Assembly (NCBI GenBank): GCA_036268055.1
Contig: DATAUW010000041.1
Location: 186,001 to 250,000, forward strand
From: Verrucomicrobiia bacterium
Lineage (GTDB): Bacteria > Verrucomicrobiota > Verrucomicrobiia > Limisphaerales > Pedosphaeraceae
DNA length: 64,000 nucleotides
Direction of reading: 5' to 3'
Position numbers and translations under genes: made by a program. The notes beneath the pieces were generated by a model. It ran no database searches and was not told the origin of the DNA. It was given only the letters and a program-made list of their open reading frames with translations. The number at the start of each line of letters is the position of its first letter. Within the stretch, counting starts at the first letter, position 1. Shown one piece after another: positions 17,451 through 26,148 of this stretch.

Positions 17451-18107
17451 ATGTACTCCTCCCAATCCATCCAAAACGGGAATGCCGTCAATTTTTTGCG
17501 GCAAATGAGAAAACCGCCAGTGGTGGAGGAATTTTGCGAGTTTTGCAACGCCGCTATTCCCGCGATCCACCGGCATTTGCTAAAAACTGCAAACCGCGAA
17601 ATCATCTGCGCTTGCGATCCTTGCGCACTTCGTTTTCAAAATGTCGCCGGTGGCAATTTTCGATTGATTCCCCGCGATGCCTCGGCGTTGCCGAATTTCC
17701 AACTGTCGGACACGCAATGGAACAGCCTGGCTTTGCCGATCAACCTGACTTTTTTCTATCGCGATTCTGCCGCGGGGAAAATGGTGGCGATGTATCCGAG
17801 TCCGGCGGGTGCTACGGAATCGCTTTTGCCAGCGGAGAATTGGCTTGAATTGGAAACTCTCAGTCCTGAACTGGCGAAGATGCAACCGGACGTCGAAGCG
17901 CTTTTGATCAATCGGATTGGCTCGGCGCGGGAATATTACATCGTTCCCATTGACCTGTGTTATGAACTGGTCGGATTAATTCGGATGCACTGGCGCGGGT
18001 TGTCCGGCGGCGAAAAGGTTTGGCAGCAGATCGAGATGTTTTTCGCGAAGCTCGGTTTGCAATGCGGCCTTTCTGAACCGGATGCAAAGGAGGCTGTCCA
18101 TGCCTGA
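17451..18107 (+). CDS. DUF5947 family protein of the hydrogenase operon
   Basis: This 218-residue protein belongs, by its phrases, to DUF5947, found next to actinobacterial-type (group 1h) [NiFe]-hydrogenases. Visible hallmarks are EFCEFC (C29, C32), a following HRHLL, CACDPCALRF (C53, C55, C58), MYPSPAGATES, PDVEALLINR, VPIDLCYELVGLIRMHWRGL and SGGEKVW. The five clustered cysteines plus histidine could bind zinc or an Fe-S centre, but this has not been shown. Its stop overlaps the DUF6084 start by eight bases. Its role in hydrogenase assembly or electron transfer is inferred from conserved neighbourhood only. Confidence 0.85.
   Translation: MYSSQSIQNGNAVNFLRQMRKPPVVEEFCEFCNAAIPAIHRHLLKTANREIICACDPCALRFQNVAGGNFRLIPRDASALPNFQLSDTQWNSLALPINLTFFYRDSAAGKMVAMYPSPAGATESLLPAENWLELETLSPELAKMQPDVEALLINRIGSAREYYIVPIDLCYELVGLIRMHWRGLSGGEKVWQQIEMFFAKLGLQCGLSEPDAKEAVHA
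18087..18102 (+). promoter_or_regulatory. Strong Shine-Dalgarno deciding the DUF6084 start
   Basis: AAAGGAGG at 18087-18093 sits about seven bases before ATG 18100. It supports this start rather than the in-frame ATG at 18082 and lies inside the end of the DUF5947 gene. Confidence 0.75.
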
Positions 18108-18753
18108 CTTTGATTTCAAAGTGACAGGAGTCGAAGCGGCGAATCGCGGCATCGCGCCGTTGCTACATTTCAAACTGGAGATCGCGAATCATCCCGAAAC
18201 GGAAAAAATCCACACGGTAATATTGCAAACGCAAATCCAGATCGAGGCCCCCCGTCGTTCTTACAACGATGCCGAAAAAGAAAAGCTCGGCGAACTCTTT
18301 GGCACGCCCGACCGCTGGGGCCAAACCTTGCGCAATCGGTTGTGGGGAATCAGCAACACCAACGTGCGTGGATTTTCAGGCAGTACCGAGACGGTGCTGC
18401 CGATGCCTTGCACGTTTGACTTGAATGTGGCCGCCACAAAATATTTTCATGCGTTGGAAGGCGGCGCCATTCCCCTGCTCTTTTTGTTCAGCGGGACAGT
18501 CTTCTACGAAGCGGCGGATGGGCGTTTGCAAGTGCAACAAATTTCGTGGAATAAGGAATGCCATTTTCAAATGCCTTCGGAAACCTGGCGCGAAATGATG
18601 GACCGGCATTTTCCGAATAGTGCGTGGCTGTATCTGCATCGCGGCGTGTTCGACCAGCTCTATGCCTTCAAACGCAAACATGGATTTTCAAGCTGGGAGG
18701 AAACTATTTCTGGTTTGCTAAACGCGGAGGAAAAAGTCGAGGTGCCGGCATAA
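18100..18753 (+). CDS. DUF6084 family protein of the hydrogenase operon
   Basis: This 217-residue protein matches DUF6084, the usual neighbour of DUF5947 in group 1h hydrogenase operons. Family-like phrases are MPDFDFKVTGVEAANRGIAP, IQIEAPRRSYNDAEKEKL, GELFGTPDRWGQTLRN, PCTFDLNVAATKYFHAL and VPLLFLFSGTVFY-like IPLLFLFSGTVFY. Beta-rich, no signal peptide, no cysteine motif. It starts inside the end of the preceding gene with a strong ribosome-binding site, so both are made together. The family's job is unknown; conservation with the hydrogenase suggests an accessory or assembly factor. Confidence 0.85.
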   Translation: MPDFDFKVTGVEAANRGIAPLLHFKLEIANHPETEKIHTVILQTQIQIEAPRRSYNDAEKEKLGELFGTPDRWGQTLRNRLWGISNTNVRGFSGSTETVLPMPCTFDLNVAATKYFHALEGGAIPLLFLFSGTVFYEAADGRLQVQQISWNKECHFQMPSETWREMMDRHFPNSAWLYLHRGVFDQLYAFKRKHGFSSWEETISGLLNAEEKVEVPA

Positions 18754-18815
18754 ATTCCGCGTTGCGCGGCGACATTAAACCTTAAACCCGGTGACACCAT
18801 GAAAGGAATCAAACT

Positions 18816-18923
18816 ATGAATGCAGGATGGATCGTATTGGCAGTGATTGGAGCAATAATCCTTATTGGATTTATCATGATGTTTCCCGAAATTCGCCGTT
18901 ATCTCCACATTGACAGAATGTAA
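18816..18923 (+). CDS. DUF6893-like 35-residue membrane peptide of the hydrogenase operon
   Basis: This tiny gene encodes 35 residues: a hydrophobic helix (about residues 4-22, GWIVLAVIGAIILIGFIMMF) followed by PEIRRYLHIDRM. The tail P-[DE]-[ILM]-R-R-Y-L-x(3)-R-M is the hallmark I recall for the DUF6893 small proteins coded next to group 1h hydrogenases. AAGGA at 18803-18807 lies eight bases before the ATG, and the stop is 12 bases before the hydrogenase small-subunit start. A single-pass peptide with a basic tail could anchor the otherwise soluble hydrogenase to the membrane or to a quinone-reducing partner; that role is inference. Confidence 0.85.
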   Translation: MNAGWIVLAVIGAIILIGFIMMFPEIRRYLHIDRM

Positions 18924-18935
18924 GAAAGGCTCCCT

Positions 18936-20012
18936 ATGAAAATATCCACAGTTCCCGTCCAAGCCGATTACAAACCCGCCGTTAAGGAAATCCACGTTCT
19001 ATGGATGACGACTGGTTTGGGTTGTGACGGCGATTCGGTTTCTGTCACTGCGGCGTCGCTGCCCAGTATTGAAGACGTCGTGCTCGGCGCCATTCCCGGA
19101 TTGCCGAAGGTGCATTTGCACAATCCGGTGCTCGCCTACGAAGTGGGCGATGACTTCATGAAATGGTGGCATCTCGCCGCTGAGGGTAAGCTCGAACCGT
19201 TTGTGCTCGTGCTCGAAGGCTCGGTGCCGAATGAAAAAATTAAATCCGAAGGTTATTGGGCTGCAATGGGAACCGACGCCAAGACCGGCCAACCGATCAC
19301 CACAAATGAATGGGTGGACCGTCTCGCGCCCAAGGCCACTGCGATCGTTTGCGCGGGAACGTGCGCGACTTATGGGGGAATTCACGCGATGGAAGGTAAT
19401 CCTACAGGTGCGATGGGGCTTGCGGATTATTTGGGCTGGAATTGGAAATCCAAGGCGGGTTTGCCGATCGTGAATGTCCCCGGCTGTCCGGTGCAACCGG
19501 ACAATATGATGGAGACGCTTTTGTATTTGCTTTATCAGGTCGCCGGACTCGCCCCGATCATTCCGCTCGATGACCAACTCCGCCCGACGTGGCTGTTCGG
19601 CAAAACGGTGCATGAAGGCTGCGACCGCGCGGGATATTATGAGCAGGGCGACTTCGCGCACGAATACGGTTCGCCCAAATGTCTCGTGAAGATCGGCTGC
19701 TGGGGACCGGTCGTGAATTGCAACGTCACCAAGCGCGGATGGATGGATGGCGTGGGCGGCTGCCCCAATGTGGGTGGCATTTGCATCGGCTGTACGATGC
19801 CCGGGTTTCCGGACAAATTCATGCCGTTCATGGACGCGCCTCCCGGTTCGGCAGTTTCGTCGTTCGCCAGCGGCATCTACGGCGGAATCATCCGTAGTCT
19901 GCGCAGCATCACCAATCGCACCGTGAACAAAGAACCGAAATGGCGTCACGCCCATGCGGAACTTACCACCGGTTACGATCCAAAATATTACGGCGACGGT
20001 TCCACCAAATAA
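18936..20012 (+). CDS. hhyS: Group 1h-type [NiFe]-hydrogenase small subunit
   Basis: The small subunit carries the Fe-S relay from the active site to the electron acceptor. The 358-residue protein has no Tat signal, as expected for the actinobacterial-type, high-affinity group 1h enzymes. The proximal-cluster region reads TTGLGCDGDSVS: C30 is kept but the usual second Cys is replaced by Asp (D33), the 3Cys-1Asp ligation known from the Ralstonia actinobacterial-type hydrogenase. Other cluster motifs are CAGTCATYGG, NVPGCPVQPDN, and for the medial and distal clusters HEGCDRAGYY, KCLVKIGCWGP and GGCPNVGGICIGCTMPGFPD. GAAAGG lies upstream of ATG 18936. It is followed after 25 bases by the large subunit gene. 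Confidence 0.95.
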   Translation: MKISTVPVQADYKPAVKEIHVLWMTTGLGCDGDSVSVTAASLPSIEDVVLGAIPGLPKVHLHNPVLAYEVGDDFMKWWHLAAEGKLEPFVLVLEGSVPNEKIKSEGYWAAMGTDAKTGQPITTNEWVDRLAPKATAIVCAGTCATYGGIHAMEGNPTGAMGLADYLGWNWKSKAGLPIVNVPGCPVQPDNMMETLLYLLYQVAGLAPIIPLDDQLRPTWLFGKTVHEGCDRAGYYEQGDFAHEYGSPKCLVKIGCWGPVVNCNVTKRGWMDGVGGCPNVGGICIGCTMPGFPDKFMPFMDAPPGSAVSSFASGIYGGIIRSLRSITNRTVNKEPKWRHAHAELTTGYDPKYYGDGSTK

Positions 20013-20037: not shown

Positions 20038-21852
20038 ATGGCAGATGTATTAACGAATTCCAAAGCCGCTTCCAAAACCCCGCAGTCGGGCAAGCTCGTC
20101 GAAATGTCCTGGGACCCGATCACGCGCATCGTCGGCAGTCTCGGCATCTACACCAAAATTGATTTTGAGAAAAAGCGCGTTGCCGAGTGCTACAGCACTT
20201 CATCCATTTTTCGCGGCTACAGTATTTTCATGCAGAACAAGGACCCGCGCGATGCCCATTTTATCACTAGTCGCATCTGCGGCATTTGCGGTGATAATCA
20301 CGCCACCTGCTCCGTCTATGCGCAGAACATGGCGTATGGCATCAAGCCGCCGCCGCTGGCCGAATGGATCGTCAATCTCGGCGAAGCGGCCGAATACATG
20401 TTCGACCATAATATTTTTCAGGACAATTTGGTCGGCGTGGATTACTGCGAGTTAATGGTTAAGGAGACCAATCCCGGCGTTTGGGAAAAAGCGCTTAAGA
20501 CAGAAGCGCCCCACGCCAAGGAACACGGCTTCAAAACCATCGCGGACATAATGAAATCCTTGAACCCATTTGAGGGAGAATTCTATCGCGAAACCCTTCA
20601 AGTAAGCCGCATGACCCGCGAAATGTTTTGCCTGATGGAAGGCCGCCACGTTCATCCTTCCACGCTTTACCCCGGTGGCGTCGGCACCGTTCCGTCCATC
20701 CAGATCTTCACGGATTTTCTCGTGCGCCTGATGAAATACGTCGAGTTCATGAAGAAGGTCGTGCCATTGCATGATGACCTGTTCGATTTCTTTTACGAGG
20801 CGTTGCCGGGATACGAGCAAGTCGGGCAACGGCGTATTCTGCTTGGTTGCTGGGGTTCGTTCCAGGACCCCGATCATTGCGATTACACTTACAAAAACAT
20901 GGATGCCTGGGGCAAAAAAATGTTCGTCACTCCCGGCATCGTCGTGGATGGAAAATTGGTGACGACCAATCTCGTGGACATCAATCTCGGCATCCGCATT
21001 CTGCTCGGCTCGTCGTATTACGAAGACTGGGGCGACAATGGCGAAGTCTTTGTAAAAAACGATCCGCTCGGCAATCCCGTTGATCGGCGGCATCCGTGGA
21101 ACCAGACTACCATTCCCAAACCGCAGAAGCGTGACTTCGGCAAGAATTACACCTGGGTCATGTCCCCGCGCTGGTATGACAAGCGTACGGATGATTATCT
21201 CGCGCTCGACACTGGCGGCGGACCCATCGCCCGCCTCTGGGCGACCGCGCTCGCGAACATCGTGGACATCGGCTACGTAAAAGCCACCGGCAACAGCGTC
21301 AAAATCCGCTTGCCCAAAACCGCGCTCAAGGACGAAGCCGAATTTGAATGGAAAATTCCAAAATGGAGCAATGCCATCGAACGCAATCGCGCCCGCACTT
21401 ATTTTCAGGCCTACGCCGCCGGCGTGGCTCTCTACTGCTGCGAACAGGCGCTCAAGCTTGTTCACGCCGGCAAGACCGAGACGTTCACGCCGTTCAAAGT
21501 GCCCGACGAAGCGATCGGTTGCGGTTTTCATGAAGCCGTGCGCGGAGTGCTCTCTCATCATTTGGTGATCCGCAACAAAAAGATCGCCAACTATCATCCG
21601 TATCCACCCACGCCTTGGAACGCAAATCCTCGCGACATCTACGGCACGCCCGGGCCATACGAAGACGCTGTGCAAAACACTCCGCTCTTTGAAGAAAACG
21701 GACCCGATAAATTCAAGGGCATTGACATCATGCGCGCGGTTCGCAGTTTTGATCCCTGCCTCCCATGCGGCGTCCACATGTATCTTGGCGGCGGAAAAGT
21801 TCTGAAAGAGATGCACACGCCCACCGCGCTCCAGGGCTTGAGCAAAAAATAA
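20038..21852 (+). CDS. hhyL: Group 1h-type [NiFe]-hydrogenase large subunit
   Basis: The large subunit holds the NiFe(CN)2CO centre that splits H2. In this 604-residue protein the L1 motif is RICGICGDNHATC (C81, C84) and the L2 motif is DPCLPCGVH (C574, C577, H580). The 24 residues after H580 form the C-terminal peptide that a hydrogenase-specific endopeptidase removes after nickel insertion. No such protease or hypABCDEF gene is in the window, so maturation genes must be elsewhere. The first L1 residue of the RICGICGDNHATC type, with the soluble partner subunit, fits the group 1h enzymes that oxidise H2 at atmospheric levels. ATG 20038 was chosen over upstream in-frame codons that lie in the preceding gene. 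Confidence 0.95.
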   Translation: MADVLTNSKAASKTPQSGKLVEMSWDPITRIVGSLGIYTKIDFEKKRVAECYSTSSIFRGYSIFMQNKDPRDAHFITSRICGICGDNHATCSVYAQNMAYGIKPPPLAEWIVNLGEAAEYMFDHNIFQDNLVGVDYCELMVKETNPGVWEKALKTEAPHAKEHGFKTIADIMKSLNPFEGEFYRETLQVSRMTREMFCLMEGRHVHPSTLYPGGVGTVPSIQIFTDFLVRLMKYVEFMKKVVPLHDDLFDFFYEALPGYEQVGQRRILLGCWGSFQDPDHCDYTYKNMDAWGKKMFVTPGIVVDGKLVTTNLVDINLGIRILLGSSYYEDWGDNGEVFVKNDPLGNPVDRRHPWNQTTIPKPQKRDFGKNYTWVMSPRWYDKRTDDYLALDTGGGPIARLWATALANIVDIGYVKATGNSVKIRLPKTALKDEAEFEWKIPKWSNAIERNRARTYFQAYAAGVALYCCEQALKLVHAGKTETFTPFKVPDEAIGCGFHEAVRGVLSHHLVIRNKKIANYHPYPPTPWNANPRDIYGTPGPYEDAVQNTPLFEENGPDKFKGIDIMRAVRSFDPCLPCGVHMYLGGGKVLKEMHTPTALQGLSKK

Positions 21853-21873: not shown

Positions 21874-22797
21874 ATGATGACCGCGCCACTCGCTGTTGCC
21901 ATCTCCGAAGAAACTTTTCAACCCACTCCGTTACCGGGAATCCATGAAACGCCCGCACTCAAAGGCAATGCGCGCGGCGATATCAACCAGCAGGGAAAAC
22001 ACATCCAGGAATTGGTCGAACGGATCAATGCCTTGCCGGATTTCGGCGCGCGAGAACTGGTGCAGGATTGTCTCCAGTCTGTGCTTGAACTTCACGGCGA
22101 TGGGCTCGCACGAATAATGCAACTGATCAAAAATTCCGGCGCGCCAGGCCGTGAAGTCAGCGAGGCGTTGCTGAATGACAAAATGGTGCGCGGACTTTTA
22201 TTGATTCACGGACTGCATCCGGTCTCGCTTGAGAACCGCTTAAAACAGGCGCTGGAAAAAGTGCGCCCCTACATGAAAAGCCACGGCGGCAATGTCGAAC
22301 TGATCGCGTTGGAAAACGATTTTGCAAAACTTCGCCTCAGCGGAAATTGCAAGGATTGTCCCTCATCCGCCGTGACAATGGAATTGGCCGTCCGCCAGGC
22401 CATCGAGGAAGCTTGTCCCGATTTGGTTGGATTTGAGATCGAAGGCGTGGTCGAGCAATCCACCGCGACAAATCATCTTCCCGCGAACGCGCCGAAGTGG
22501 ACACATCTCGAAGGAATGACTCCGCTCGCGGATGCAGAACTGCGTCCACTCACAGTGGCCGATGTGCCGGTCTTGATCGCGAAGGTTGGCAAAAATCTTT
22601 ACGCCTATCGCGATGAGTGTCCGATTTGCGAAACGAAGCTCAGCCTCGGCAAGTTGGAATCGAATATCCTCCATTGCCCTGCGGGCCATCGCTTCGACAT
22701 CTGCCGGGCGGGTGCTAGCGCGGATGGCGAGGCCAAACATCTACAACCGTTTCCTTTGTTGGCGACGGATGAAGTGATTAAAATATCTGTGAGGTAA
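21874..22797 (+). CDS. NifU-domain / Rieske-like fusion Fe-S protein of the hydrogenase operon
   Basis: This 307-residue protein has an N-terminal helical region (about 40-115), a NifU C-terminal-type domain (about 120-195, with C159 and C162 in GNCKDCPSS) and a Rieske-like domain (about 208-307). The Rieske-like metal site is unusual: C249 and C252 (DECPICETK) then C268 and H272 (HCPAGHRFD), so C-x2-C and C-x3-H instead of C-x-H and C-x2-H. Rieske-type proteins coded beside mycobacterial uptake hydrogenases (HucE, HhyE) are needed for electron transfer, and this protein is the likely counterpart. It lies 21 bases after the large subunit. Two ATGs in tandem make the exact start ambiguous by one codon. 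Confidence 0.88.
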   Translation: MMTAPLAVAISEETFQPTPLPGIHETPALKGNARGDINQQGKHIQELVERINALPDFGARELVQDCLQSVLELHGDGLARIMQLIKNSGAPGREVSEALLNDKMVRGLLLIHGLHPVSLENRLKQALEKVRPYMKSHGGNVELIALENDFAKLRLSGNCKDCPSSAVTMELAVRQAIEEACPDLVGFEIEGVVEQSTATNHLPANAPKWTHLEGMTPLADAELRPLTVADVPVLIAKVGKNLYAYRDECPICETKLSLGKLESNILHCPAGHRFDICRAGASADGEAKHLQPFPLLATDEVIKISVR

Positions 22798-22816: not shown

Positions 22817-23632
22817 ATGAGAGCAATTTGGACCGGCGCGATAAGTTTCGGACTCGTCTCGATACCCATCTCCCTTTATCCCGCGACGCGGCGGGAAGAC
22901 CTTTCATTTCGCCTGCTTCGCAAAAGCGATTTGAGCCCCGTCAATTATAAACGAGTGGCCGAGGCTGATGGAAAAGAGGTTCCTTGGGAACAGATCGTGA
23001 AGGGATACGAATACGAAAAAGGAAAATTCGTGGTGCTAAGCGACGAGGATTTTAAGCGGGTTGACATCGAAGCCACGCAGACCGTGGACATCATCGAATT
23101 TGTCAAACTGGCAGAAGTGGATCCCCTCTTATTTTCAAAACCGTATTACATGGAAGTGAGGAAAGGCGGTGACAAAGCTTATTCGCTTTTGCGCGAGTCA
23201 CTCCAGGCCACGCAAAAAATCGCCATCGCAAAAGTCGTCATCAAAACCCGGCAACATCTGGCGGCCATCAAACCTCAGGAACGCGGGCTCATGCTTGAAA
23301 TCATGCACTTCCCCGAAGAGCTTTTGGATGCCTCTGAATTCAAACAGCCCGGCAGGCAGGAAACCAGCAAAGGTGAAATGGGCATGGCGAAACAATTAAT
23401 TGAAAGCATGTCGAAGCCGTGGGACCCCGCTGCTTTTAAGGATGATTATCATTCGATGCTCAAAAAAGTGGTGGATGCAAAAGTTCATCACAAAGACAAT
23501 CAAAGGCCCGCTACGACAAAGCATGTCTCGCAATCCAAAGTCATTGATCTGGCGGCGGTGCTTCAGGAAAGCATCAAGCACGCAAAGGGCGGCAAAGTTT
23601 CCGGCGGCAGGAAATTAAAAAAAGCCGCGTGA
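22817..23632 (+). CDS. ku: Non-homologous end-joining protein Ku
   Basis: Bacterial Ku forms a ring-shaped homodimer on DNA double-strand ends and recruits LigD. The 271-residue protein opens with the typical MRAIWTGAISFGLVSIPISL and has RLLRKSDLSPVNYKRVAEADGKEVP (read as two adjoining motifs), the KGYEYEKGKFVVLSDED segment and a conserved C-terminal LLDASEF/MAKQLIESM core. The last 35 residues are Lys-rich (HAKGGKVSGGRKLKKAA), a common DNA-binding tail. It starts 19 bases after the hydrogenase-linked NifU-Rieske gene and is 6 bases before the ligD gene, so the end-joining cassette may be read from the hydrogenase promoter. Confidence 0.95.
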   Translation: MRAIWTGAISFGLVSIPISLYPATRREDLSFRLLRKSDLSPVNYKRVAEADGKEVPWEQIVKGYEYEKGKFVVLSDEDFKRVDIEATQTVDIIEFVKLAEVDPLLFSKPYYMEVRKGGDKAYSLLRESLQATQKIAIAKVVIKTRQHLAAIKPQERGLMLEIMHFPEELLDASEFKQPGRQETSKGEMGMAKQLIESMSKPWDPAAFKDDYHSMLKKVVDAKVHHKDNQRPATTKHVSQSKVIDLAAVLQESIKHAKGGKVSGGRKLKKAA

Positions 23633-23638
23633 TTCCGT

Positions 23639-25228
23639 ATGTCGCTTAAAGAATACAATCGAAAGCGTAACTTTAAAAAAACTGCGGAGCCCGCGGGAAA
23701 ACTCGCCAGCCAGGCTGGCCACCGGTTTGTCATTCAGAAACACGCGGCATCGAGACTTCATTACGACTTCCGGCTCGAACTGGATGGAACTTTGAAATCG
23801 TGGGCGGTTCCAAAAGGTGTCCCATTCGCCAAAGGTGAAAAGCGGCTCGCCGTCGAGGTGGAAGACCATCCCGTCTCGTACATAAATTTTGAAGGCTCGA
23901 TTCCCAAAGGGCAATATGGCGGAGGAACCGTCATGGTTTGGGACCAGGGAAATTATGAGCCGCTCAGCGAGCATCCGCGCAAGGACCTTGAGAGTGGAAA
24001 ATTACATTTTGTTTTGCACGGCACAAAACTCGAGGGCGAGTGGTATTTAGTCAGACTAAAAGATGGCAAAAACTGGCTTCTCGTCCGGGGCGGTAGCGAC
24101 ATGAAACCGGTTTCGCACAAACTGGATGACAGTTCGGCCATTTCCGGTCGCACGATGGAGGCGATTGGCAGAAACGGAAAAGTTTGGAACTCCAATCGAA
24201 ACGATTCGCCGCCGAAGGAATCGAAAGCGTCAAAGAAACCCTCCCCGAAAGCCAGCCATTTCCCCACATTTATTGAGCCGATGAAAGCCCGGCTGTCGGA
24301 AAGCCCGCAACCCGGAGACTGGCTTTACGAAATCAAACTCGATGGCTTCCGCGCGGTCGCGTTTAAAAATGGCGATGACGTAAAGCTCCTCTCGCGAAAC
24401 GAAAAAGATTTCAGCGCCAAGTTCCCTGATGTTTTTGAAGCTGTGAAAGCGTTGCCAACCGGTGACGCTATTTTGGACGGAGAAATCGTAGCTCTGGATC
24501 CAAAGGGACGTTCTTCGTTTCAGCTTTTGCAGGCTTACGATTTGGGGCAGGATAAGCCGCCCATCATTTATTATGTTTTTGATCTCCTCCGCTTTGAAGG
24601 CAAAGATTTGCAGAAGCTTCCCCTGACGGAACGAAAAGAACTTTTGGCACACGCACTCAAAGGCGCCCCTGCCCTCATACGCGAATCCGCTTCGCTCAAC
24701 GGAAACGTAAAAAAATTGTTAAAGCAGGCCCAAAAATTGGGAATTGAGGGACTCATTGGCAAACGGCCCGATTCCACCTACGAAGCCGGACGCCGAAGCG
24801 GCGACTGGATAAAATTAAAACTTCATCAGGAACAAGAGATGGTCATCGGGGGCTTCACGGAACCCGAAGGGGCCCGGCATTATTTTGGTTCGCTCGTTAT
24901 CGGATATTACGACAAAGGAACATTATTATGCTCCGGCAAAGTCGGAACCGGTTTCAACGACACGCTTTTGAAATCGCTCGCCGAGCAATTTAAATCCATC
25001 CCTTCCAAAGAATGCCCTTTCGCAAATTTGCCAGAAAAAAGTTCTGGTCGTTATGGTGCGGGAATTACAGTGGCGGAAATGAAAAGGTGTCGCTGGTTAA
25101 AACCTAAACTGGTCTGCCAGATAAAATTTTCTGAATGGACGCGCGACGGAAAATTGCGTCAGCCAGTTTTTCTTGGACTGCGCGAGGACAAATCCGCAAA
25201 AGAAGTGGTAAGGGAAAAAGCTTCATGA
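23639..25228 (+). CDS. ligD: ATP-dependent DNA ligase LigD (phosphoesterase and ligase domains)
   Basis: This 529-residue protein combines an N-terminal 3'-phosphoesterase domain (about 20-180; FVIQKHAASRLHYDFRLELD, WAVPKGVP, GTVMVWDQG) with an ATP-dependent ligase (about 205-525). The ligase nucleotidyl-accepting Lys is K233 in YEIKLDGFRA; later motifs include LDGEIVALD (motif III), EGLIGKRPDS (motif IV) and GDWIKLKLHQEQEMVIGG (motif V). The polymerase domain is missing here and is coded as a separate protein just downstream (ATGA overlap), so the three LigD activities are split in two. The enzyme trims 3' ends and seals Ku-bound breaks. Confidence 0.94.
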   Translation: MSLKEYNRKRNFKKTAEPAGKLASQAGHRFVIQKHAASRLHYDFRLELDGTLKSWAVPKGVPFAKGEKRLAVEVEDHPVSYINFEGSIPKGQYGGGTVMVWDQGNYEPLSEHPRKDLESGKLHFVLHGTKLEGEWYLVRLKDGKNWLLVRGGSDMKPVSHKLDDSSAISGRTMEAIGRNGKVWNSNRNDSPPKESKASKKPSPKASHFPTFIEPMKARLSESPQPGDWLYEIKLDGFRAVAFKNGDDVKLLSRNEKDFSAKFPDVFEAVKALPTGDAILDGEIVALDPKGRSSFQLLQAYDLGQDKPPIIYYVFDLLRFEGKDLQKLPLTERKELLAHALKGAPALIRESASLNGNVKKLLKQAQKLGIEGLIGKRPDSTYEAGRRSGDWIKLKLHQEQEMVIGGFTEPEGARHYFGSLVIGYYDKGTLLCSGKVGTGFNDTLLKSLAEQFKSIPSKECPFANLPEKSSGRYGAGITVAEMKRCRWLKPKLVCQIKFSEWTRDGKLRQPVFLGLREDKSAKEVVREKAS

Positions 25229-26148
25229 CGGCTCAAGCAACCGAACTCGAAGTAGGCGGCGTCGCGGTCAAGGTATCCAACCTCGATAAAGTTTTTTATC
25301 CCAAAACGGGATTCACCAAGGGTGAAGTGATTGATTACTACATCCGAATTTCCCATTACCTTCTGCCGCATTTAAAGAATAGACCTATCATGCTCAAGCG
25401 TTATCCGAACGGCGTGGAAGGTTTTTTCTTTTACGAAAAACGCTGTCCGTCCAGCCGGCCCAAATGGGTGCAAACCACGAAAGTTTCCAAATCCGATGGC
25501 GGGGACATTGATTATTGTGTGATGAACGACCTGCCGACGCTGGTGTGGGCGGCCAATCTGGCGGATTTGGAACTCCACACTTTTCTGCATAAGGCAACTA
25601 ACCTCGATCGCCCCACGGCACTTGCCTTTGACCTCGATCCCGGTCCGCCAGCCGATATTTTGACCTGCTGCAAAGTTGCGCTTCATTTAAAATCCATTTT
25701 TGATTCCTTGAAGCTTGAGAGCTTTCCCAAAACATCCGGTTCAAAAGGAATGCAGATTTACGTGCCGATCAATACCAATGTTTCCTACGAAAACACCAAA
25801 ACCTTCGCGCACGAACTCGCCCTGCTGATGGAACGGGAATTTCCCGACCTCGTCGTTTCGCAGATGAACAAAGCCCTCCGCAAGGGCAAGGTGTTCATGG
25901 ATTGGAGTCAAAACGATTCAAAAAAAACCACCGTAAATGTTTATTCTCTCCGGGCGAAGGAACACCCCACCGTTTCTACGCCGCTCCTATGGAACGAAAT
26001 CGAATCGGCGCTAAAAAAGAAAAAAGCGCTATCATTGATCTTTGAAGCCTCCGATGTTTTAAAACGAGTTGAAAAAAACGGAGACCTGTTTTCTCCCGTT
26101 TTGACCTTGAAACAAAAACTTCCCGCCGTTCGGTCGCTTGATAAATAA
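25225..26148 (+). CDS. LigD polymerase (primase-like) subunit, separate gene
   Basis: This 307-residue protein is the stand-alone LigD polymerase domain of the archaeo-eukaryotic primase superfamily. It fills or adds nucleotides at Ku-bound ends, often ribonucleotides. Catalytic and family phrases: LDKVFYPKTGFTKGEVIDYY (about 20-39), CVMNDLPTLVWAANLADLEL, the metal-binding FDLDPGPPAD (about 135-144), the KTSGSKGMQIYVP phosphate-binding loop and a third acidic site in VFMDWSQND. Its ATG overlaps the stop of the ligase gene (ATGA), so this is the true start. It closes the end-joining cassette; the downstream region is non-coding up to the tRNA gene. Confidence 0.94.
   Translation: MTAQATELEVGGVAVKVSNLDKVFYPKTGFTKGEVIDYYIRISHYLLPHLKNRPIMLKRYPNGVEGFFFYEKRCPSSRPKWVQTTKVSKSDGGDIDYCVMNDLPTLVWAANLADLELHTFLHKATNLDRPTALAFDLDPGPPADILTCCKVALHLKSIFDSLKLESFPKTSGSKGMQIYVPINTNVSYENTKTFAHELALLMEREFPDLVVSQMNKALRKGKVFMDWSQNDSKKTTVNVYSLRAKEHPTVSTPLLWNEIESALKKKKALSLIFEASDVLKRVEKNGDLFSPVLTLKQKLPAVRSLDK

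Follow-up and report, generated by a model that had tools for sequence, protein, structure and literature searches.

What holds a group 1h [NiFe] hydrogenase at the cell membrane? A large share of the H2 removed from the atmosphere is attributed to enzymes of this group. Several papers describe the enzyme as behaving like a membrane-associated one, with a drop in affinity once it is off the membrane. Hyd-1h lies on the cytoplasmic side, without a signal peptide or anchor (PMC5364354), and an anchor-type protein was not detected in the hhy operon of M. smegmatis (PMC6883350). In Methylacidiphilum SolV, Hyd-1h lacks both a helix and a signal peptide, and even so its activity is mostly in the membrane fraction; its affinity is lower once it is isolated from the membrane, and the authors invoke a partner yet to be found (PMC7174314). 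The C. necator H16 enzyme is cited in PMC7174314 as cytoplasmic and of low affinity. Throughout papers from 2019 to 2026 the membrane anchor of the group 1h enzyme is given as not known, still so in a paper of July 2026 (PMC13332983).

The DNA analysed here, a 64,000-nucleotide stretch from a Verrucomicrobiia bacterium (the window), carries a group 1h operon in which a very small open reading frame (ORF) precedes the small-subunit gene. An earlier reading of the letters (the original prediction) had proposed that this ORF encodes a membrane anchor or docking peptide for the hydrogenase.

A 35-residue gene directly upstream of hhyS

The neighbours of the peptide gene are those for the group 1h small and large subunits, DUF5947, DUF6084 and a NifU-type partner (Table 1). 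The best PDB match of the hhyS product was C. necator HofK (5aa5), a group 1h "actinobacterial-type" hydrogenase (E=3e-187). For hhyL, the first plausible ATG is at 20038, in an ORF open from 19954.

Table 1. Features of the peptide gene and the surrounding hhy operon in the window
Feature	Position	Strand	Evidence or remark
DUF5947 protein of hhy operon	17451..18107	+	Pfam PF19372, E=9e-69
DUF6084 protein of hhy operon	18082..18753	+	Pfam PF19562, E=3e-84; ORF overlaps DUF5947
Shine-Dalgarno-like AGGA	18804..18807	+	8 nt 5' of peptide ATG, read directly
Single-helix membrane peptide, DUF6893-type, 35 residues	18816..18923 (stop codon included)	+	Pfam PF21833, own profile, 92 homologues
Hydrophobic helix region, about residues 4-23	18825..18884	+	Sequence, AlphaFold2, hydropathy
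Conserved C-terminal tail PEIRRYLHIDRM, predicted cytoplasmic	18885..18920	+	Tail statistics, n=92 homologues
hhyS, group 1h [NiFe] hydrogenase small subunit	18936..20012	+	Pfam NiFe_hyd_SSU_C, Oxidored_q6
hhyL, group 1h [NiFe] hydrogenase large subunit	20038..21852	+	Pfam PF00374, E=1.6e-61
HhyE-like NifU + Rieske-type protein, putative electron acceptor	21874..22797	+	Pfam NifU E=5e-18, Rieske E=8e-5

The ORF at 18816-18923 translates as MNAGWIVLAVIGAIILIGFIMMFPEIRRYLHIDRM followed by the stop codon, that is, a single hydrophobic helix and then the tail FPEIRRYLHIDRM. A gap of 12 nt separates its stop from the hhyS ATG (18936). The tiny gene with a good ribosome-binding site, 12 bases from the small-subunit start, had thus been predicted with exact coordinates and translation, and both the hydrophobic helix and the tail are present as described, the tail being positively charged and conserved.

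Searched with a profile of its own homologues, the 5.1 Mb genome gave the peptide as its single match (E=1.6e-12). The original prediction had also named DUF6893 as the family and suggested an HMM search with it. Against this model (PF21833) the window peptide scored 24.0 bits (E=4e-5), 0.6 bit short of the curated cut-off of 24.6, with an alignment covering model positions 3-32 of 32; among its homologues, 31 of 34 sampled matched at E<=0.01 (best E=1.1e-12). The peptide very likely belongs to DUF6893.

AlphaFold2 modelled the peptide alone as one continuous helix (residues 3-32, mean pLDDT 90), which says little beyond the helix itself; the structure-prediction input omitted ten rows, one of them from a plasmid record. 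A PDB sequence search with the peptide gave no match (best E=1.4), an Rfam scan of the operon gave none either, and in a promoter/terminator scan the signals were no commoner than in shuffles.

Directly 3' of the hydrogenase genes, at 22817-26148, lie genes for Ku and for DNA ligase D, the latter divided between two ORFs, one for the phosphoesterase-ligase and one for the primase-polymerase.

The C-terminal tail is conserved across six phyla

Searches were seeded with Verrucomicrobiota peptides encoded upstream of hhyS and were followed by profile searches of 80 hhy loci and of whole genomes. We obtained 92 distinct homologues from Verrucomicrobiota, Planctomycetota, Acidobacteriota, Chloroflexota, Actinomycetota and Pseudomonadota (alpha- and betaproteobacteria). 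The original prediction depended on homologues existing in other group 1h operons, and these were found across phyla.

The tail consensus of the 92 sequences is P-[DE]-x-x-R-Y-[LIM]-[RK]-[IML]-x-x-M. Counted over all of them, P was present at -11 in 75, D/E at -10 in 83, R at -7 in 92, Y at -6 in 90 and M at 0 in 91; since the profile used to gather the members itself covers the tail, these frequencies are somewhat too favourable, but the pattern still holds across phyla. The C-terminal Met is immediately followed by the stop codon, with TAA, TAG and TGA used in comparable numbers. The helix sequence, on the other side, is variable and only its hydrophobicity is kept, the best 18-residue stretch averaging a hydropathy of 2.27 over the family. 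These data show that the tail is the constrained part of the peptide. The combination of a near-invariant tail and a merely hydrophobic helix suggests that one part sits in the membrane and the other binds a protein.

For 82 of the 92 homologues, a start preceded by a Shine-Dalgarno-like motif of at least 4 bases could be chosen. In most close pairs dN was below dS, clearly so in Paraburkholderia, Thermogemmatispora and Edaphobacter and less clearly in Actinomadura, and the peptide gene is under purifying selection in close pairs. Taken together, the peptide ORF is confirmed as a real gene, far beyond chance.

Several variants of the locus were also seen. In some Acidobacteriota, which have a canonical peptide elsewhere too, longer proteins stand at the usual peptide position (L122 1562-1888; L040 9147-9374; L063 12648-12971; L037 12702-12977), each with one hydrophobic helix and at least one tail-like motif, e.g. 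SHPAIRKSLKSGLESVLPDVQNRLGLGTVSALVPDIQRYLKLRSM. Locus L030 (5595-5953) has two tandem peptide genes in overlapping stop-to-stop frames upstream of hhyS. In L003 (1260-1383), a T-run near the peptide start is one T shorter than in its close relative L004, which shifts the N-terminal frame; this is either a sequencing error or a different start.

The gene position varies and annotation misses the gene

In Verrucomicrobiota the peptide gene lies directly upstream of hhyS. The same holds for the Methylacidiphilum-like loci L003 and L004 (likely SolV relatives; small subunit 71% identical), where it is just upstream of hhyS. In some Acidobacteriota with a tandem pair of hhyS genes it is directly 5' of the first one. 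Most other phyla have the peptide about 6-8 kb (typically about 6.7-7.3 kb) downstream from where hhyS starts, next to the maturation protease, and the usual order is hhyS-hhyL-nifU-DUF5947-DUF6084-hypothetical-protease-peptide-hyp genes, with local variants. The constant place next to hhyS that had been claimed therefore holds for Verrucomicrobiota and some acidobacterial tandem operons and fails for most phyla; a fixed position between DUF6084 and hhyS is ruled out by this downstream, protease-side location. When a search was confined to 1.2 kb of DNA 5' of hhyS, Verrucomicrobiota alone gave the peptide, which is an artefact of where that search looked, because the peptide is downstream in most other phyla.

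On C. necator plasmid pHG1, the protease and hypF genes are 166 bases apart and the peptide gene fills this space, at 66753-66854; a perfect AGGAGG stands upstream, and the gene table lists nothing there. The peptide is also missing from the gene tables of the M. intracellulare, Methylocystis parvus and Kitasatospora plasmids, the plasmid gene table being incomplete. Unlisted in 4 of the 4 plasmids examined, it bears out the expectation that gene finders miss such genes.

A different annotation problem concerns the enzyme: at L108 3971-5026, L109 4004-5059 and L110 3959-5038, the group 1h small subunit is annotated as "hydrogenase expression protein HypE". This label on plasmid group 1h small subunits is a misnomer that conceals the enzyme.

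Peptide presence is tied to group 1h operons

An association of the peptide with group 1h hydrogenases had been claimed, and whole-genome counts sustain it. Among 289 Verrucomicrobiota genomes, the peptide (E<=0.001) was found in 3/3 with the group 1h small subunit vs 0/286 without it. In Acidobacteriota (149 genomes), it was found in 6/7 with the enzyme vs 0/142 without, a count that leaves out two matches of E=0.003-0.007 inside ORFs of about 700 residues. For the 246 Actinomycetota genomes, the corresponding numbers at E<=0.001 were 17/27 and 4/219. The pooled Fisher test, which ignores relatedness, gave P=3e-34 for the association of peptide and hhy.

Two of the four matches in Actinomycetota without the enzyme are inside long unrelated ORFs; the others are G554, where the remainder of the hhy operon is present at a contig edge, and G533. 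The matches in G360 and G439 (Actinomycetota) and in G611 and G665 (Acidobacteriota), all inside ORFs of 436-711 residues, were treated as chance. Among the ten enzyme-bearing Actinomycetota that gave no match, inspection showed a clear copy in G346 and a divergent form in G466 and G509, and in G565, G522 and G380 the contigs stop short of the expected peptide position. In G520, G462 and G438, the peptide is apparently absent from an operon region that the contigs do cover, and it is probably absent from G441 too.

Fifty genomes were chosen for having hhyS: 49 had a match, and in 46 a match lay no more than 12 kb from hhyS and on its strand, a few matches being weak and the weakest, e.g. L056, possibly due to chance. 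Peptide presence is thus tied to group 1h operons, a strong association that is short of universal. No paper in the literature library searched names DUF6893; previously without a functional description, the family can now be linked with group 1h hydrogenases across six phyla.

Three further arrangements were noted in these genomes. In G533 (L174 7780-8342) the genes for peptide, protease and Hyp proteins are all retained while hhyS is undetected genome-wide; this may be a relic operon. Several Acidobacteriota (G299:C3, G297:C26, G592:C2, G667:C8) carry a pair of group 1h small-subunit genes separated by 3.6-5 kb, whose products are about 80% and 70% identical to that of the window's hhyS. At L178 (7215-8756) there is a related but distinct hydrogenase without the peptide, its small subunit being about 53% identical; about five single-helix proteins of ~100 residues each are encoded between its small- and large-subunit genes and may form an anchor set.

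A candidate membrane-docking subunit and its alternatives

Taking into account the near-invariant tail and the co-occurrence in at least six phyla, we regard the peptide as the best candidate for the part that attaches the group 1h hydrogenase to the cell membrane. It is probably a single-helix structural or assembly subunit that docks the enzyme there. What follows on its topology, its binding partner, the anchoring itself and a possible influence on H2 affinity is inferred. The helix would lie in the cytoplasmic membrane, with N-out/C-in as the most likely orientation. In 70 of the 92 homologues there is more positive charge on the C-terminal than on the N-terminal side, which favours a cytoplasmic tail, on the same side as the enzyme. 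The short basic tail, ending in Met at the stop codon, would dock onto cytoplasmic HhyS/HhyL or HhyE, and the docked tail would keep the enzyme, which itself has neither a Tat signal nor an anchor, at the membrane and close to the quinone pool. A free-form hydrophobic helix with an invariant basic tail fits what is expected of a membrane-docking peptide.

Some evidence counts against docking or is neutral. The few divergent hhy operons in which we found no peptide (G520, G462, G438 and probably G441) are counter to it. C. necator H16 has the peptide together with an enzyme described as cytoplasmic and of low affinity, so the peptide alone guarantees neither membrane association nor high affinity. 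AlphaFold2 was run on the natural L032 peptide, HhyS and HhyL as one frame read through the stop codons; the model was poor (mean pLDDT 51, tail below 50), and no docking inference is drawn from it.

The position of the gene, mostly beside the maturation protease and away from the structural genes, is equally suited to a membrane-tethered maturation or assembly factor, which would aid the protease, the Hyp proteins or HhyE and stay outside the mature complex. This usual place, directly by the protease gene and among or before the hyp genes in most phyla, leaves room for an assembly role, and in G533, where hhyS is undetected, the peptide has likewise stayed with the protease and hyp genes. We nevertheless consider such a factor unlikely: in Verrucomicrobiota and some Acidobacteriota the peptide gene is just 5' of hhyS and away from the maturation genes, maturation of the NiFe centre takes place in the cytosol with no known requirement for a membrane helix, and related hydrogenases with the same Hyp set exist without the peptide (L178).

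We also wondered whether several helices could surround the hydrogenase oligomer and guide menaquinone to the electron exit, as a minimal counterpart of the HucM stalk. HucM is a hydrophobic tube joining Huc to the membrane (PMC10017518), and the literature gives Hhy no HucM-like subunit; the tandem pair of L030 and the L122-type proteins with several tail-like motifs hint at multivalency. A 35-residue peptide is, however, too short for a stalk, and a separate electron acceptor, HhyE, has already been proposed (PMC6883350), which makes quinone delivery decidedly improbable. Finally, an ORF arisen by chance, or one for a toxin, leader peptide or other unrelated membrane-active product merely sitting in the operon, might be suspected from the very short ORF and a single-sequence Pfam match that is weak and just below the curated cut-off, but is rejected as extremely improbable by the homologues in six phyla, the near-invariant tail with all three stop codons after the same C-terminal Met, dN below dS in most close pairs and the tie to hhy, and a leader or attenuator function gives no account of a conserved C-terminal tail at differing gene positions.

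Returning to membrane docking, a bolder version, which we put forward tentatively, is that DUF6893 might be the missing membrane subunit of group 1h enzymes in general, its tail a universal docking motif that, by placing the enzyme at the quinone pool, gives the membrane-bound form its high H2 affinity. A peptide that tracks the enzyme in six phyla makes the open anchor question experimentally approachable. It is also relevant to the heterologous production of oxygen-insensitive group 1h enzymes, if constructs omit the peptide gene.

Comparison with known systems

The window peptide shares with Pfam DUF6893 its length (the model has 32 positions), the hydrophobic helix and the C-terminal tail P-[DE]-x-x-R-Y-[LI]-[KR]-[IM]-x-x-M; it differs in its score, 24.0 against the family cut-off of 24.6. 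Anchors of group 1d enzymes, which are periplasmic and Tat-exported, are a large haem cytochrome b (HyaC/HoxZ-type) or a C-terminal helix of the small subunit, whereas the group 1h subunits include neither cytochrome b nor a fused C-terminal helix (PMC5364354, PMC6883350). HucM of the group 2a hydrogenase Huc is alike in being an accessory subunit that links an atmospheric-H2 hydrogenase to the membrane (PMC10017518). It has about 190 residues and forms a tetrameric coiled-coil stalk plus scaffold, whereas the peptide has one helix and a 12-residue tail; with 35 residues and a single helix it lacks the long oligomerising coiled coil of the HucM type, and homology is not claimed.

Respiratory enzymes have tiny hydrophobic single-helix accessory subunits of the CydX, CcoQ and KdpF type, which are operon-encoded and often unannotated. 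The peptide resembles them in all of these respects: tiny, hydrophobic, encoded in an operon and often left out of the annotation. Subunits of that type bind within integral membrane complexes, whereas the peptide is proposed to have a soluble-type partner and carries a conserved extramembrane tail.
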